DNA from: Gelidibacter salicanalis
GTDB taxonomy: Bacteria > Bacteroidota > Bacteroidia > Flavobacteriales > Flavobacteriaceae
NCBI RefSeq assembly: GCF_016469035.1
Contig: NZ_JAEHJZ010000004.1
Location: 261,683-325,682, forward strand
Direction of reading: 5' to 3'
Length of the DNA: 64,000 nucleotides
Part shown: positions 57,955 through 63,973 of the stretch, piece by piece
Layout of the letters: every line of letters begins with the position of its first letter
How positions within the stretch are numbered: the first letter of the stretch is position 1
Program-made: the position numbers and the translations under genes
The notes under the pieces: generated by a model
Database searches by the model: none
Told to the model about the DNA's origin: nothing
What the model saw: only the letters and a program-made list of their open reading frames with translations

Positions 57955-58356
57955 ATGACTGCAGACTTCAAGAAAAGACAACTAACCTTTTTACTACTCA
58001 TAACCGTTTTAAGTGTGGTGTTGTACGGCATCCATAGTTATGTACTTTCATACTTTGGGTCGGAGTTAAAATTATTTTTCCCCGTATGGCACATTTATGC
58101 ATTTCTTTTTGCTGTAACCGCCTTGCTATATACCGTTGTAAACTATAAATTTTCAACAGGAAAAACAGATGTTTTGATGCTTTTTATGGGAGGTACGCTT
58201 GTAAAGATGTTTCTCGCTATTTTGTTTTTATTACCTGTTATTTTATCAGATTTTGAAAATAAACAACCTGACATTTTTAACTTTTTTATACCCTATTTTT
58301 TATACCTGGCATTTGAGGTGTATACCATCACGAGGTTCCTTGAGAAAACCCCATAA
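57955..58356 (+). CDS. small membrane protein of the atp cluster (AtpI-like position, possibly DUF6168)
   Basis: This 133-residue protein has four predicted membrane helices and a basic start (MTADFKKRQLTFLLLITVL). Position between atpZ and atpB and the four-helix layout match the AtpI-like or DUF6168-type proteins of flavobacteria. I cannot name the function; a role in c-ring assembly is a guess from position. The atpB promoter starts 32 bases after its stop. Confidence 0.6.
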   Translation: MTADFKKRQLTFLLLITVLSVVLYGIHSYVLSYFGSELKLFFPVWHIYAFLFAVTALLYTVVNYKFSTGKTDVLMLFMGGTLVKMFLAILFLLPVILSDFENKQPDIFNFFIPYFLYLAFEVYTITRFLEKTP

Positions 58357-58388
58357 TGTACCTGCCTTTAATATTGATAAAAAAGTGT

Positions 58389-58418
58389 TTGACAATTAAA
58401 CTAATGTGTGTACATTTG
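58389..58418 (+). promoter_or_regulatory. strong Bacteroidota promoter of the atp operon
   Basis: TTG at 58389-58391, a 19-base spacer and TACATTTG at 58411-58418 match TTG-N19-TAnnTTTG exactly. It lies 38 bases before the atpB start at 58457. Confidence 0.85.
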
Positions 58419-58456
58419 CACGGAATTTAGAGCAAGGTATTTTTAAGCTATTCATA

Positions 58457-59539
58457 ATGACATTAAACACTTTAAGAGCCGTATTATTTTTAGTTTTTTC
58501 TGTAGCTATCACCAATTTTGGTTTTGCCGCACAAGATAACGAAGACCAAGACAAAGGGTTCAATGCCACAGAGATGATCATGCATCACGTTAAAGATGCC
58601 CATGAATTTCATATTGTAGACTGGGACAATAAGCCTATCAGTATCCCGTTGCCAATTATTCTTTTTACAGATAACGGACTCACCACATTTATGTCTAGCG
58701 AGTTCCACCACGACGATTCAGGATCAACCATTGTTGAAAAAAATGGAGAACGATTTGTAAAATATCACGAAAAAATCTATCAATTGGAGCCGGGTGTAAA
58801 TACCCTAACTTTTGATGAAGAACTCCATCCTAACAACGCAGCCACACCCCTCGATTTTTCCATTACCAAAAACGTCTTTATGATGTGGGTGTCGGTAATT
58901 TTATTGTTCATTATCTTTATTTCTGCAGCGCGTAAATACAGCAAATCAAACAACAACATACCAAGAGGTGTTGCTTCTTATGTGGAGCCATTGGTTGTTT
59001 TTATCAGGGATGAGGTGGCCATTCCTATGATTGGAGAAAACAAATATAAAAGGTATATGCCGTTTTTATTAACGGTATTTTTCTTTATTTGGATCAATAA
59101 TATTTTCGGTCTGATTCCTATTTTAAACGGTGCCAACGTGAGTGGAAATATTGCCTTTACGTTGTCTTTGGCTTTGTTCACCTTTTTTATAGTGATGTTC
59201 AATGGTAATAAAAATTACTGGAAACACATTTTCTGGATGCCTGGAGTTCCGGTACCAATGAAATTGTTCTTAATGCCTATTGAGATTATAGGAATGTTTG
59301 TAAAACCATTCTCATTGACCATCCGTTTGTTTGCTAACATTACCGCAGGACATATCATTATCCTGTCGTTAATGTCCCTAATCTTTACCTTCCAGAGCGT
59401 TGCAATTGCACCGGTATCTGTTGGGTTCTCATTATTCATTTTAATTATAGAAATTGTAGTTGTTGCAATTCAAGCATATATATTTACCGTGTTGTCTGCC
59501 TTGTATATAGGTATGGCTACCGCAGAAGATCATCATTAA
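58457..59539 (+). CDS. atpB: ATP synthase F0 subunit a
   Basis: About 360 residues from MTLNTLRAVLFLVFSVAI, which looks like a signal peptide. An N-terminal domain (30-140) is followed by five to six membrane helices. The critical Arg lies in 'KPFSLTIRLFANITAGHII'; a C-terminal helix has 'EIVVVAIQAYIFTVLSALYIGMA'. The a subunit forms the proton half-channels next to the c-ring. The long N-terminal part is usual in Bacteroidota. The open frame begins earlier, at 58406, but that overlaps the promoter. Confidence 0.95.
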   Translation: MTLNTLRAVLFLVFSVAITNFGFAAQDNEDQDKGFNATEMIMHHVKDAHEFHIVDWDNKPISIPLPIILFTDNGLTTFMSSEFHHDDSGSTIVEKNGERFVKYHEKIYQLEPGVNTLTFDEELHPNNAATPLDFSITKNVFMMWVSVILLFIIFISAARKYSKSNNNIPRGVASYVEPLVVFIRDEVAIPMIGENKYKRYMPFLLTVFFFIWINNIFGLIPILNGANVSGNIAFTLSLALFTFFIVMFNGNKNYWKHIFWMPGVPVPMKLFLMPIEIIGMFVKPFSLTIRLFANITAGHIIILSLMSLIFTFQSVAIAPVSVGFSLFILIIEIVVVAIQAYIFTVLSALYIGMATAEDHH

Positions 59540-59558
59540 TTAATTTAAATTTTATATT

Positions 59559-59768
59559 ATGACTATTACAGGAATCGCAGCACTTGGAGCTGGTATGGCA
59601 GTTATTGGAGCAGCAATTGGAATTGGTAAAATCGGTGAGTCAGCTATGAACGCTATGGCTCGTCAACCGGAAATCCAAGGAAAATTACAGACTTCAGCGC
59701 TTATCTTAGCGGCTTTCGTAGAGGCAGTAGCACTATTTGGTGTTGTTGCGGCTATCATCGTTAAGTAA
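59559..59768 (+). CDS. atpE: ATP synthase F0 subunit c
   Basis: This 69-residue hairpin protein has helix 1 'GMAVIGAAIGIGKIGESAM', the polar loop ARQPE (residues 34-38) and helix 2 'LILAAFVEAVALFGVVAAIIV' with the ion-carrying Glu55. The residue after Glu55 is Ala rather than Ser/Thr, so a proton rather than sodium ring is expected. A perfect hairpin follows at 59780, between this gene and atpF. The c ring needs many copies per complex. Confidence 0.95.
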   Translation: MTITGIAALGAGMAVIGAAIGIGKIGESAMNAMARQPEIQGKLQTSALILAAFVEAVALFGVVAAIIVK

Positions 59769-59779
59769 GTATTAAAATA

Positions 59780-59812
59780 GACACAGAAATAACGGTTGGT
59801 TATTTCTGTGTC
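59780..59812 (+). promoter_or_regulatory. 14-bp perfect hairpin between atpE and atpF
   Basis: GACACAGAAATAAC (59780-59793) pairs exactly with GTTATTTCTGTGTC (59799-59812) around GGTTG. It is followed by TTTATTA, a weak T tract. It may partly terminate transcription or protect the atpBE transcript, raising c-subunit output. Confidence 0.75.
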
Positions 59813-59881
59813 TTTATTACGCTTCGAAGCTGTAGTGTCGAAGAAAAAAATTTAAATTATAAAAACTAAAACCTATTATAA

Positions 59882-60376
59882 ATGGATTTAATTACACCAG
59901 GCTTAGGACTTGTTTTTTGGTCACTCATAACCTTTTTTATTCTACTTGTAGTCTTGAAAAAGTTCGCGTGGAAACCAATTTTAGGAGCTGTTGATGAGCG
60001 CGAGAGCGGTATCAAAAATGCTTTAGAAGCGGCAGACAAAGCGCGTAAGGAAATGGAAAACCTTAAAGCAGATAATGAGCGTATCCTTAATGAAGCACGT
60101 GCTGAGCGTGAAGCTATGTTGAAAGATGCACGTGACATCAAAAATAAGATGGTAAGTGATGCCAAAGAGGAAGCACAGCTACAAGCTACTAAAATGATTG
60201 CTCAGGCCCAAGAAGCCATTGAAAATGAAAAGAGAGTAGCTATGGCTGAACTTAAGAACCATGTCGCAACTTTATCTATTGAAATCGCTGAAAAAGTAGT
60301 ACGTCAGGAGTTAGGTAGCAAAGACAAGCAACTAGAGTTGGTAGAGTCTATGTTGGGTGACGCCAGATTAAATTAA
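59882..60376 (+). CDS. atpF: ATP synthase F0 subunit b
   Basis: This 164-residue protein has one N-terminal membrane helix (about residues 8-25) and a long charged helix (30-150) ending in 'KVVRQELGSKDKQLELVESML'. The family motif 'WKPILGAVDERESGIKNAL' is present. It forms the peripheral stalk that holds F1. It starts 113 bases after atpE behind a strong hairpin, so its expression may be lower than that of atpE. Confidence 0.95.
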   Translation: MDLITPGLGLVFWSLITFFILLVVLKKFAWKPILGAVDERESGIKNALEAADKARKEMENLKADNERILNEARAEREAMLKDARDIKNKMVSDAKEEAQLQATKMIAQAQEAIENEKRVAMAELKNHVATLSIEIAEKVVRQELGSKDKQLELVESMLGDARLN

Positions 60377-60382
60377 GAACTT

Positions 60383-60406
60383 ACACTGGGCGCAGAAAAA
60401 ATGTGT
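60383..60406. repeat. degenerate copy of the TGAGCGCAGT repeat
   Basis: ACACTGGGCGCAG followed by AAAAAATGTGT aligns at 18 of 24 positions with the hairpin at 61021-61044 and keeps its ACAC/GTGT arms. It lies between atpF and atpH. Confidence 0.5.
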
Positions 60407-60464
60407 TCATGAGAATAGTATATTAGAATAATTAAATGAGATACCCACCTACGTGGGCATTAGT

Positions 60465-61001
60465 ATGGCACAAACAAGAACAGCAATACGATACGCAAAA
60501 GCAGTTTTAGATCTTGCAAAAGATCAGAATTCGGCAGCCGTGGTACACGCTGATATGAAGTCAATTGCAAATGCTGTAGAGGCAAGTACAGATCTTAAAG
60601 ACATGCTTTTAAGTGCTGTAATACCTACTGCAACAAAAAAATCGGCTTTATTGGCAGTATTTACTGGTTTGGACAAGCTGAGCATCAACTTAATAGATAC
60701 GTTAATTTCTAATAAACGTATCGCTATATTGGGTACGGTTGCTCAGGTATATACTGAATTATACAATGAAGGAGAAGGCAAACAAGTTGCAACTGTAACT
60801 ACCGCGGTCTCACTAACAGAGGAGCTTCAGGCAAAAGTGTTGGCCAAAGTAAAGGAATTGACAGGTAAAGAGGCTGAAATACTAAATGTAATTGACGAAG
60901 CTATCTTAGGAGGTTTCATCTTACGTGTAGGAGATATGCAGTACGATGCAAGTATTGCAAACAAGTTGAATAAGTTAAAAAGAGAATTTACATTAAACTA
61001 A
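60465..61001 (+). CDS. atpH: ATP synthase F1 subunit delta
   Basis: About 178 residues from 'MAQTRTAIRYAKAVLDLAK', the usual start of the delta subunit (RYA-AL motif), to 'LGGFILRVGDMQYDASIANKLNKLKREF', the conserved C terminus. It links the peripheral stalk to the top of F1. The open frame extends to a GTG at 60453 but the ATG at 60465 gives the family start. A CCCAC/GTGGG mini-hairpin lies just upstream. Confidence 0.94.
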   Translation: MAQTRTAIRYAKAVLDLAKDQNSAAVVHADMKSIANAVEASTDLKDMLLSAVIPTATKKSALLAVFTGLDKLSINLIDTLISNKRIAILGTVAQVYTELYNEGEGKQVATVTTAVSLTEELQAKVLAKVKELTGKEAEILNVIDEAILGGFILRVGDMQYDASIANKLNKLKREFTLN

Positions 61002-61018
61002 AAGTTTTATTGATGTTG

Positions 61019-61044
61019 TCACACTGAGCGCAGTTGAAGTGTGA
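61019..61044. repeat. hairpin repeat with TGAGCGCAGT core between atpH and atpA
   Basis: TCACACT and AGTGTGA form a 7-bp stem around GAGCGCAGTTGA. The core TGAGCGCAGT(C/T)GAA is shared with the repeat at 9879-9951. Confidence 0.65.
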
Positions 61045-61077
61045 AATTAAAGTCAATAAAAATAATATCTAATAAAA

Positions 61078-62658
61078 ATGGCAGAAGTAAAACCAGCTGA
61101 AATTTCAGCAATCTTAAAGCAACAATTGTCAGGTTTTGAAGCTAGCGCTTCATTAGACGAAGTAGGAACGGTATTGACAGTTGGAGATGGTATTGCACGT
61201 GTGTATGGCCTAGCCAACGTTCAATATGGTGAATTAGTTGAATTTGCGGATGGTCTTGAAGGCATCGTACTGAATCTTGAAGAAGATAACGTAGGTGTTG
61301 TATTGTTGGGCCCTTCAGTAGGTGTCAGCGAAGGCTCTATCGTTAAACGTACAAAACGTATTGCTTCCTTAAAAGTAGGAGAAGGAATTGCTGGACGTGT
61401 TGTGGATACTTTAGGAACTCCAATTGACGGTAAAGGTCCAATTGAAGGAACGCTTTATGAAATGCCATTAGAACGTAAAGCTCCTGGTGTTATCTACCGT
61501 CAACCGGTAACTGAACCATTACAAACGGGTATCAAAGCTATTGATGCCATGATTCCTGTAGGTCGTGGGCAACGTGAGTTGGTTATTGGTGACCGACAAA
61601 CTGGTAAAACAGCAGTTTGTATTGATACCATTATCAATCAAAAAGAATTTTATGATGCAGGAGAACCTGTATATTGTATCTATGTAGCTATCGGACAAAA
61701 AGCGTCCACAGTTGCTTTAATTGCAAAAACATTAGAAGAAAAAGGAGCAATGGACTACACAACCATAGTTGCGGCCAATGCCTCTGACCCTGCTGCAATG
61801 CAAGTGTATGCACCGTTTGCTGGTGCTGCAATTGGTGAGTATTTTAGAGATACTGGCCGTCCTGCATTGATTGTTTTTGACGATTTATCAAAACAAGCAG
61901 TAGCATACCGTGAGATTTCGTTATTGTTACGTCGTCCACCGGGACGTGAGGCGTACCCAGGTGACGTATTTTACCTTCACTCAAGATTGTTGGAGCGTTC
62001 AGCTAAAATCATCAATAACGATGCCATTGCTAAAGAAATGAACGATTTGCCTGACGTGTTGAAACCAATCGTAAAAGGTGGTGGTTCTTTAACCGCATTA
62101 CCAATTATTGAAACACAGGCTGGTGACGTTTCGGCGTATATCCCAACCAACGTGATTTCTATTACAGATGGTCAGATTTTCTTGGATGGAGATTTGTTTA
62201 ACTCTGGTGTTCGTCCAGCAATTAACGTAGGTATTTCTGTATCCCGTGTTGGTGGTAACGCACAGATCAAATCGATGAAAAAAGTATCGGGTACTCTAAA
62301 ATTAGATCAAGCACAATACCGTGAGTTGGAAGCGTTTGCGAAGTTTGGATCTGATTTAGATGCAGTTACTTTAAACGTTATCAACAAAGGGAAACGTAAT
62401 GTTGAGATCTTAAAGCAAGCACAAAACGATCCGTTTAGGGTTGAAGACCAAGTGGCGATTATCTATGCGGGTTCTAAAAACTTATTGAGAGACGTTCCTG
62501 TGGAAAAAGTAAAAGAATTTGAACGCGATTATTTAGAGTTTTTAAAGGCTAAGCACAGTGATGTATTAGCATCTTTAAAAGCAGGAAAACTAACTGATGA
62601 AGTTACGGATACTCTTGCGGCAGTAGCTAAAGAATTATCAGCGAAATATAGAAAATAA
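61078..62658 (+). CDS. atpA: ATP synthase F1 subunit alpha
   Basis: This 526-residue protein has the alpha-type P-loop '[18 protein letters not shown]' (about residue 174), '[48 protein letters not shown]' (the family signature region, with the Arg finger in a later segment '[16 protein letters not shown]'). It alternates with beta in the F1 hexamer. The stop at 62656 is directly followed by the left inverted repeat of a four-helix-bundle cassette. Confidence 0.97.
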
Positions 62659-63105
62659 AGTTATGAGTTCGGAGTTATGGGTTCAGAGTGTTTCGATTCT
62701 CGAGCAACTTATAACTCCATATTTATAATTTAGAATAGATACTTAGATGTCGTTAGAAAACAGTCCAATTAGAATAAAGAGTTTTCTTTTTGCTTGTGAG
62801 GTTGTAAAGTATTGCGATATATTGAAACAAAATAGAGATTTCGAGCTAGCATCTCAATTATTAAAAAGCGGGACGAGCATTGGAGCTAATTCTCGTGAAG
62901 CTCAAAGGGGTGTTAGTAGAAAAGATTTTAAAAATAAGTTTGGAATTGCTCTAAAGGAGGCTGATGAAACCAAATATTGGTTAGAAATATTAGAAGCAAC
63001 CGGTAGAGAAGTACCAAAAGATTTGATGAACAAGTGTGAAGAATTAATCAGGATTTTAGTGGCAATTACGAAAAACTCATAACTCTGCACTCCGAACTCA
63101 TAACT
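62659..63105 (+). mobile_element. 447-bp inverted-repeat cassette carrying a four-helix-bundle gene inside the atp operon
   Basis: AGTTATGAGTTCGGAGT (62659-62675) is matched by its exact reverse complement at 63089-63105. Between them lies one gene of the four-helix-bundle family. The left repeat starts on the base after the atpA stop and the right repeat ends 7 bases before the atpG start. Inside the ends, partial copies of GAGTTATGAGTT continue on both sides. In the transcript the ends would pair and present the gene as a loop, as in 23S rRNA intervening sequences. Confidence 0.75.
62747..63082 (+). CDS. four-helix-bundle protein (23S rRNA intervening-sequence type)
   Basis: This 111-residue helical protein has the family segments 'SFLFACEVVKYCDILKQNRDFELASQLLKSGTSIGANSREAQ', 'FGIALKEADETKYWLEILEA' and 'ELIRILVAITKNS'. 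These match the IVP/S23 and Avd-like four-helix-bundle family, whose genes are found in rRNA intervening sequences and scattered through Bacteroidota genomes. The fold binds nucleic acid in known relatives; the role here is unknown. Its stop codon lies inside the right repeat region. It interrupts the usual atpA-atpG adjacency. Confidence 0.88.
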   Translation: MSLENSPIRIKSFLFACEVVKYCDILKQNRDFELASQLLKSGTSIGANSREAQRGVSRKDFKNKFGIALKEADETKYWLEILEATGREVPKDLMNKCEELIRILVAITKNS

Positions 63106-63112
63106 AGAAAAA

Positions 63113-63973
63113 ATGGCAAACTTAAAAGAAATACGTAACAGAATAACATCGGTATCTTCCACGATGCAGATTACCAGTGCCATGAAAATGGTATCGGCTG
63201 CAAAACTGAAGAAGGCACAAGATGCTATTACTGCAATGCGTCCGTATTCTGATAAATTAACAGAATTGTTACAAAGCTTAAGCGCAACTTTAGATGCTGA
63301 TTCTGGAAGTAAATTTGCCGAGCAACGCGATGTCAATAAAGTATTATTAGTTTCAATAACTTCTAACAGAGGTTTGGCAGGTGCATTCAACTCTAACATT
63401 ATTAAACGAACTAACCGTTTAATAAATGAAGAGTATGCCGGTAAAGACGTTTCTATTTTAGCAATAGGTAAAAAAACAAATGATGCTTTTAAGAAAGGTA
63501 ACCGAGTTATTGCTAATAAGAGTGAAATTTATGATGATCTGACTTTTGATAATGTTGCTGAAATTGCTGAATTATTGATGGATAAGTTCTTAAAGGAAGA
63601 ATCAGATAAGATTGTTTTAGTTTATAACAAATTTAAAAACGCAGCTACACAAGAAATCATGACTGAACAGTTTTTACCAATTGTTCCAATGGAAAAGGAT
63701 GAAGATGTTGATGTCGATTATATTTTTGAGCCTTCTAAAGCTGAAATCGTTAAGCAATTGATTCCTAAATCTCTAAAAACACAGCTTTTTAAAGCGCTTA
63801 GAGACTCTTTTGCCTCTGAACATGGTGCACGTATGACCGCCATGCATAAAGCGACAGACAACGCCACAGAATTGAGAGACCAATTGAAGCTGACGTATAA
63901 CAAAGCACGTCAAGCGTCCATCACCAATGAAATTTTAGAAATTGTAGGAGGAGCGGAAGCTTTGAACAATTAG
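63113..63973 (+). CDS. atpG: ATP synthase F1 subunit gamma
   Basis: This 286-residue protein starts 'MANLKEIRNRITSVSSTMQI', has 'TSAMKMVSAAKLKKAQ' and the C-terminal 'EHGARMTAMHKATDNATELRDQLKLTYNKARQASITNEILEIVGGAEAL', the gamma-subunit signatures. It is the rotating central shaft of F1. No atpD or atpC follows in the remaining 27 bases; in Bacteroidota these usually form a separate operon. Confidence 0.97.
   Translation: MANLKEIRNRITSVSSTMQITSAMKMVSAAKLKKAQDAITAMRPYSDKLTELLQSLSATLDADSGSKFAEQRDVNKVLLVSITSNRGLAGAFNSNIIKRTNRLINEEYAGKDVSILAIGKKTNDAFKKGNRVIANKSEIYDDLTFDNVAEIAELLMDKFLKEESDKIVLVYNKFKNAATQEIMTEQFLPIVPMEKDEDVDVDYIFEPSKAEIVKQLIPKSLKTQLFKALRDSFASEHGARMTAMHKATDNATELRDQLKLTYNKARQASITNEILEIVGGAEALNN

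Follow-up and report, generated by a model that had tools for sequence, protein, structure and literature searches.

Genes of the S23 family between mirrored heptamer arrays, one of them in the atp operon of Gelidibacter salicanalis, point to a widespread and little-noticed genetic element

The gap between atpA and atpG in Gelidibacter salicanalis holds a cassette in which a gene of the S23 (IVP) family is placed between inverted, degenerate arrays of 7-bp units; with a probability of about one half, this cassette belongs to a widespread, semi-selfish class that rides in operons. The architecture recovered around S23 relatives on chromosomes and plasmids points to a widespread and little-noticed genetic element. 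Our analysis started from a stretch of 64,000 nucleotides (the window), whose atp genes are called an operon here on account of their strand and spacing.

The atpA-atpG gap measures 454 bp and lies between protein-coding genes, outside any rRNA gene; its single sense ORF is the S23 gene (Table 1). An earlier note on this DNA had described a four-helix-bundle gene in a perfect 17-bp inverted repeat at 62659..63105, in a cassette filling the gap from one base after the atpA stop (62658) to 7 nt before atpG (63113). These coordinates are right, and the S23/IVP profiles and a structural model agree with the identity given to the gene. The two arms, 37 nt each, are 81% complementary. Their outermost 17 nt (62659-62675 and 63089-63105) are perfectly paired; past these the duplex has mismatches. 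The predicted RNA fold of 62640-63125 is more stable than 100 out of 100 dinucleotide shuffles (z -4.0), and the arms folded alone give a duplex of -43.6 kcal/mol, as expected of the discrete cassette with pairing ends that had been claimed. Three features had been missed: the 7-bp periodicity of the arms, the S23 stop codon in the 3' arm and the self-folding 5' leader. The local repeat is strong in only 6 of 29 long 5' leaders, so that a local leader fold is not general. Since S23 is the sole sense ORF of at least 60 aa in the cassette, there is no transposase or recombinase gene inside it on the sense strand, and the reported absence of a transposase stands; an antisense frame (62902-63399) overlaps the cassette and extends into atpG. 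An Rfam search of 58300-63300 matched no family up to E 1, and no target-site duplication was evident when filled and empty gaps were compared by eye.

Table 1. The cassette and its host genes in window coordinates.
Feature	Position	Strand	Basis
atpA, upstream host gene	61078..62658	+	ORF list; used as tblastn query to locate the site in other genomes
5' arm, degenerate heptamer array of GAGTTAT type	62659..62695	+	complementarity; lag-7 periodicity in atp cassettes
5' leader, local fold possible as an alternative to the long-range stem	62659..62746	+	RNA fold -25.9 kcal/mol
S23/IVP-family gene, 111 aa, four-helix-bundle protein	62747..63082	+	ORF, profiles, model; intact relatives under purifying selection
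3' arm, includes the S23 stop codon	63069..63105	+	complementarity to the 5' arm
atpG, downstream host gene, 7 nt past the 3' arm	63113..63973	+	ORF list

The encoded protein matches the profiles PF05635 (E 1.1e-19, 71 bits, cut-off 33.8) and TIGR02436 (E 5.7e-26, 90.9 bits, cut-off 24). Its AlphaFold2 monomer model is a four-helix bundle (pLDDT 94.5) that matches the S23 structures 2RLD (TM 0.83-0.91) and 2GSC; the resemblance to Avd (4DWL) and to the complex of a diversity-generating retroelement (DGR, 8UB7) is far weaker, with TM about 0.6 and a Foldseek E of about 1. Intact copies from the same site in relatives are under purifying selection (median dN/dS 0.087, 197 pairs). Removal of identical gaps from 111 atp loci left 93 distinct copies, on which intactness and arm classes were counted; 26 of the 93 are not intact, a missing ATG being scored as broken.

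How widely is this site occupied? We read 50 of 60 genomes, that of G. salicanalis included; one has no atpA, and among the 49 readable gaps six contain the S23 gene. The earlier note had advised to look for an empty site in close relatives; the gene is absent from 43 of the 49 gaps and from seven of ten Gelidibacter genomes, the other three carrying it. At E<=1e-22, 53 of 397 Flavobacteriaceae genomes match. The loci of the best 30 of these 53 all lie between atpA and atpG, which gives a lower bound of at least 30 confirmed carriers in the family; four other loci were read besides. A scan of GTDB species located 79 of the best 80 of 105 relatives at atpA-atpG, in Flavobacteriaceae and Crocinitomicaceae, a result biased to the atp site because the query was built from atp-located copies. 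The lone other locus, in a Clostridia MAG, lies between two other co-directional ORFs and has mirrored heptamers by eye. A MAG record labelled Rhodobacteraceae (L120) has the same cassette ends as the Flavobacteriaceae genome G345 and is likely mislabelled.

In a quick phylogeny with few columns and long-branch warnings, which used 91 of the 93 distinct atp copies, the atp-located S23 genes group together as a single clade, apart from 32 S23 genes of other locations (SH-aLRT 92). Distances between S23 genes track those between the atpG genes (Pearson 0.65; Mantel 0/2000; 89 loci), so that shared descent outweighs exchange. The window cassette is about 80% identical to cassettes of its own genus and of other genera alike, and neither the comparison of cassette identities nor the Gelidibacter tree test makes a recent exchange of this cassette visible. 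Two scenarios found no support: a recent insertion into this genome, given a subfamily long at the site and a cassette about equidistant from the others, and an independent origin of the three Gelidibacter cassettes, one shared origin not being rejected (AU p 0.906). Judged by these comparisons, the atp-site subfamily is loyal to one site, patchy in its occurrence and decaying.

Comparison of Mariniflexile gromovii with M. maritimum gives one clear case of a cassette exchanged as a unit between species. Their cassettes are 98.2% identical, against 82.1% for atpA and 80.9% for atpG. Identity is complete in the leader, counted from the base that follows the atpA stop, and again between the S23 stop and the start of atpG; the final 30 bases of the M. 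gromovii atpA are those of a gene-less congener (L219). Both S23 copies are broken, in different ways. S23 identity averages 0.763 (sd 0.064) over the 560 pairs whose atpA identity is 0.80-0.85; the Mariniflexile pair reaches 0.973, the highest value, followed by 0.913. The edges of other discordant pairs are blurred, some extending into atpG, and the exact-edged exchange is one pair. Of the mobile insert that the earlier note had suspected, the exchange of a unit between species is supported in one clear case; an arrival in this genome in recent times is not supported. The six Mariniflexile genomes contain a GAGTT cassette (two), a GAATT cassette (one), a gene-less GAGTTAT hairpin (one) and a gene-less TCCCTCTCC hairpin (two). 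Gene-less hairpins of the TCCCTCTCC type occur at atpA-atpG in several genera (L219, L221, L043, L050, L052).

The arms themselves are built from heptamers. Among the lags of 3-14 tested, the best self-match falls on 7 or 14 in 89 of the 93 5' arms and 92 of the 93 3' arms of atp cassettes. Three arm classes, GAGTT, GAATT and GACTT, are represented, and the two arms of a cassette belong to one class in 91 of the 93 distinct cassettes. When partners are exchanged over the entire set, pairing is weaker than in the native combinations (mean -24.8 vs -27.3 kcal/mol for the native ones; 0/10,000 permutations); inside the GAGTT class (75 cassettes) the native combinations have no such advantage (p 0.81). 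Base-by-base covariation was hence not found within a class: common to both arms is the class, not the individual base pair. The agreement in class could come from the swapping of whole cassettes or from homogenisation at the DNA level. Furthermore, the S23 stop codon lies inside a heptamer-like motif in 58 of the 67 intact copies.

Such periodicity is not confined to the atp site, as lag 7 or 14 is also the best in 72 of 114 arms at other S23 sites. Clear 7-bp arms were found at 71 of 103 S23 loci, with 52 distinct heptamers. When aligned by rotation, these share the grammar NNN-g-A-[AGT]-T (A 0.97, T 0.90, G 0.53), whose log-likelihood is 138.9, compared with 97-111 in 12 letter shuffles. 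Exact GAGTTATGAGTT is present at three places in the genome of G. salicanalis; of the two outside the cassette, read by eye, one (L008) consists of just one match and the other (L010) of a short isolated array, and a dispersed GAGTTATGAGTT family in this genome is rejected. The expectation of other copies with GAGTTATGAGTT ends fails accordingly, the flanks of the other six S23 genes being different, and what holds in general is that S23 genes have inverted arms of their own sequence. No strict lag-7 array was detected in the window at the threshold used, below which the cassette's own arms also fall. Heptamer arrays without S23 exist too. The motif GAGTTATGAGT was counted 49, 36 and 20 times in genomes G429, G004 and G009, often 7 or 14 bp apart in the rows listed, and only three times in the window's genome; in a control, the reversed GAGTTATGAGT pattern is commoner than GAGTTATGAGT in some genomes (e.g. 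G210, G377).

Six further S23 copies reside in the genome of G. salicanalis, each between co-directional protein genes, which from a reading of their sequences we take to resemble scoA/scoB, mraY/murD, an RND pair, batC/batD, a paaG/paaH-like pair and DUF1599/DoxX. At three of these sites, other genomes too carry S23 between the same neighbours, and an inverted repeat above shuffles flanks five of the six copies. In relatives, simple ORF calling places 76 out of 78 S23 copies on the strand of both adjacent genes; the same is true of 27 of 50 window genes and of 8 of 12 small ones (up to 200 aa). Inverted arms above all 25 shuffles are present at 67 of the 78 copies and at 3 of 49 window genes; many of the 78 loci, like several of the 25 plasmid loci described below, represent one site shared by related genomes, and the counts and Fisher values are thus not those of independent events. 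The set of 78 is without one copy (G030:C17) and without two rows that are second pieces of counted copies. At scoA|scoB, the S23 gene is present in 8 of the 30 genomes read (of 48); the two S23 genes there whose arms are of the TAATGTA type share 65% identity, and at most 55% with the remaining ones. One contig contains three S23 genes inside about 3.5 kb (L262, L273, L277; G019:C23:22146-25643).

S23 matches were also obtained on 25 plasmid records, all of which were read: 20 are cyanobacterial, and five come from four other phyla (Bernardetia, Treponema, Monoglobus and two from Chlorohelix). Mirrored arms exceed shuffles at 24 of the 25 plasmid genes, with a clear 7-bp period in 23 and, in some, perfect pairing over 33-39 bp; among the control genes of one Nostoc plasmid, 5 of 42 pass the same arm test, and a heptamer array is present at one of these five. 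According to an incomplete gene table, 17 of the 25 genes are co-directional with both neighbours, four are antisense between a co-directional pair and four have divergent neighbours. Several of the co-directional ones lie inside gene rows for restriction, DISARM or CRISPR. The plasmid genes L330, L332 and L334 are within annotated type I restriction (hsdS/hsdR) and DISARM rows. On Nostoc and Anabaena plasmids (L314, L315), S23 is antisense between cas2 and cas1. Among phage records, 2 of 50,697 have a distant S23 (<60% identity).

Hairpins are frequent between the genes of the atp operon. The atpE-atpF gap (window 59769-59881) forms a strong one, with z<-3 in 21 of 21 operons; values of z<-2 were obtained in 8 of 11 atpF-atpH gaps, 12 of 19 atpH-atpA gaps and 15 of 19 gene-less atpA-atpG gaps. 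We propose that the operon tolerates the cassette because the atpA-atpG junction often has a hairpin in any case. This is not a general rule: the scoA|scoB gaps without S23 span from 0 to 347 bp, several measuring just 0-8 bp, and z<-2 was reached in 5 of 12 tested.

According to our model, the arms would pair in the atp mRNA, forming a stem whose loop contains the S23 gene, and this stem would stand in for the atpA-atpG hairpin. The 5' leader could pair either locally or with the far arm, and translation of S23, whose stop lies within a 3' arm that ends 7 nt before atpG, would open that arm. Double-strand cutting of the stem by RNase III, argued by analogy with 23S rRNA intervening sequences such as that of Coxiella, would be plausible. 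The S23 protein, distantly related to Avd, may recognise the heptamers of the arms, be it as RNA or as DNA. Where arms are nearly identical, cassettes could replace each other at the site through recombination, and we propose that this yields exact edges where donor and recipient are of one class. The heptamer repeats of cyanobacteria are of the STRR type. In REP/RAYT systems and REPINs, short repeats go with one protein family and stand in inverted order around its gene. S23 differs in being no transposase and in repeats that vary between copies. As a tentative and rather unlikely extension of our model, S23/IVP proteins would be the partners of heptamer repeats, recognising NNN-g-A-[AGT]-T units and spreading, mirroring or maintaining them as RAYTs do with REPs; S23 cassettes, gene-less heptamer hairpins, the arrays of Cyanobacteria and Bacteroidetes and the rRNA intervening sequences (IVSs) might then be one family that colonises transcribed spacers in at least five phyla.

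Four rival explanations of the cassette were weighed. As a strict mRNA intervening sequence, its stem would be cut by RNase III, which would free the S23 RNA and split the atp transcript. Protein family, sense position and terminal stem are those of the Coxiella burnetii 23S rRNA IVS according to a passage in PMC4990558, where a 28-bp stem cut by RNase III in vitro is reported, and a stem is predicted here as well. Yet the duplex is mismatched past the outer 17 bp and a competing local hairpin is possible in the leader, and we regard the strict form as somewhat unlikely. Still less probable is a host regulator, in which the stem and S23 translation would set the alpha:gamma ratio via translational coupling. 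The 3' arm ends 7 nt before the atpG start, the gene has been long at the site under a median dN/dS of 0.087, and further junctions of the operon, such as atpE-atpF, have hairpins as well; however, 43 of 49 readable gaps have no such gene and at least 30 carriers stand among 397 family genomes, 26 of 93 distinct copies are not intact, and the same type of cassette is found between unrelated genes.

The arms could also be neutral simple-sequence DNA, heptamer arrays having arisen by slippage and been mirrored by template switching, with S23 merely among them. Arrays without S23 and the lack of covariation within an arm class would fit this origin, which we nevertheless consider improbable: arms were detected at 67/78 and 24/25 S23 loci against 3/49 and 5/42 controls (from one window and one plasmid, the loci not being independent), the heptamers share a grammar, and exchange is cassette-sized. 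Very improbable, finally, is retrohoming, in which S23 would play the part of Avd and a reverse transcriptase would return a copy of the cassette RNA to the gap it came from. The exact cassette edges would suit it, as would the weak fold similarity between the S23 model and the four-helix bundle of Avd and its DGR complex; a resemblance of PF05635 to Avd is also stated in a passage of PMC10053308. This route is weakened by the lack of an RVT_1 match at E<=1e-8 in 3 of 12 genomes, including M. maritimum, a partner in the exchange. Moreover, no reverse transcriptase was recognised among the neighbouring ORFs of eight S23 loci by reading, and reading likewise revealed none beside the atp-site S23, an apparent difference from DGRs.

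A semi-selfish cassette riding in operons, the reading that we prefer, has known counterparts. The likeness to 23S rRNA IVSs drawn in the earlier note is sound in that the gene is, as there, of the S23 family; here it lies in sense between co-directional genes. According to passages in PMC4990558 and PMC11270868, the IVSs of C. burnetii, Leptospira and CPR have a terminal stem whose loop contains an S23 ORF, are patchy and are thought to have spread horizontally; a first mention of a conserved ORF in an IVS dates back to at least 1993, as the title in a reference list indicates. The atp cassette differs in its place between protein-coding genes and in arms made of 7-bp arrays, its stem being a predicted one. 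IVP genes are described in cas loci (excerpt of PMC3936711) and in rRNA insertions, and S23/IVP proteins are still called functionally uncharacterised (both in an excerpt of PMC11270868). In Flavobacterium columnare, a four-helix-bundle gene between those for guanylate kinase and nicotinate-nucleotide adenylyltransferase is tabulated among phage elements (excerpt of PMC5524665). The TAACTGA repeats described in Beggiatoaceae, Cyanobacteria and five Bacteroidetes (PMC4679880) are likewise tandem intergenic heptamers, partly in the same phyla, but the sections of that paper at hand treat mainly direct repeats of the one heptamer TAACTGA; of their horizontal spread they say that 'no mechanism is evident', and they nowhere use the terms 'intervening sequence', 'S23' or 'four helix'. 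Likewise, 'ATP synthase' occurs 0 times in the available portion of a transcriptome paper on F. psychrophilum (PMC9723704). Within the open-licence literature of PubMed Central, we found no paper that links S23 genes to mirrored heptamer arrays.

The link between S23 and heptamers, together with the shared grammar and the cassette exchanged in an essential operon, brings the function of S23 and the spread of the repeats within direct reach of tests, on the binding target of S23, on possible cleavage of the stem in mRNA and on the way in which the cassettes move.
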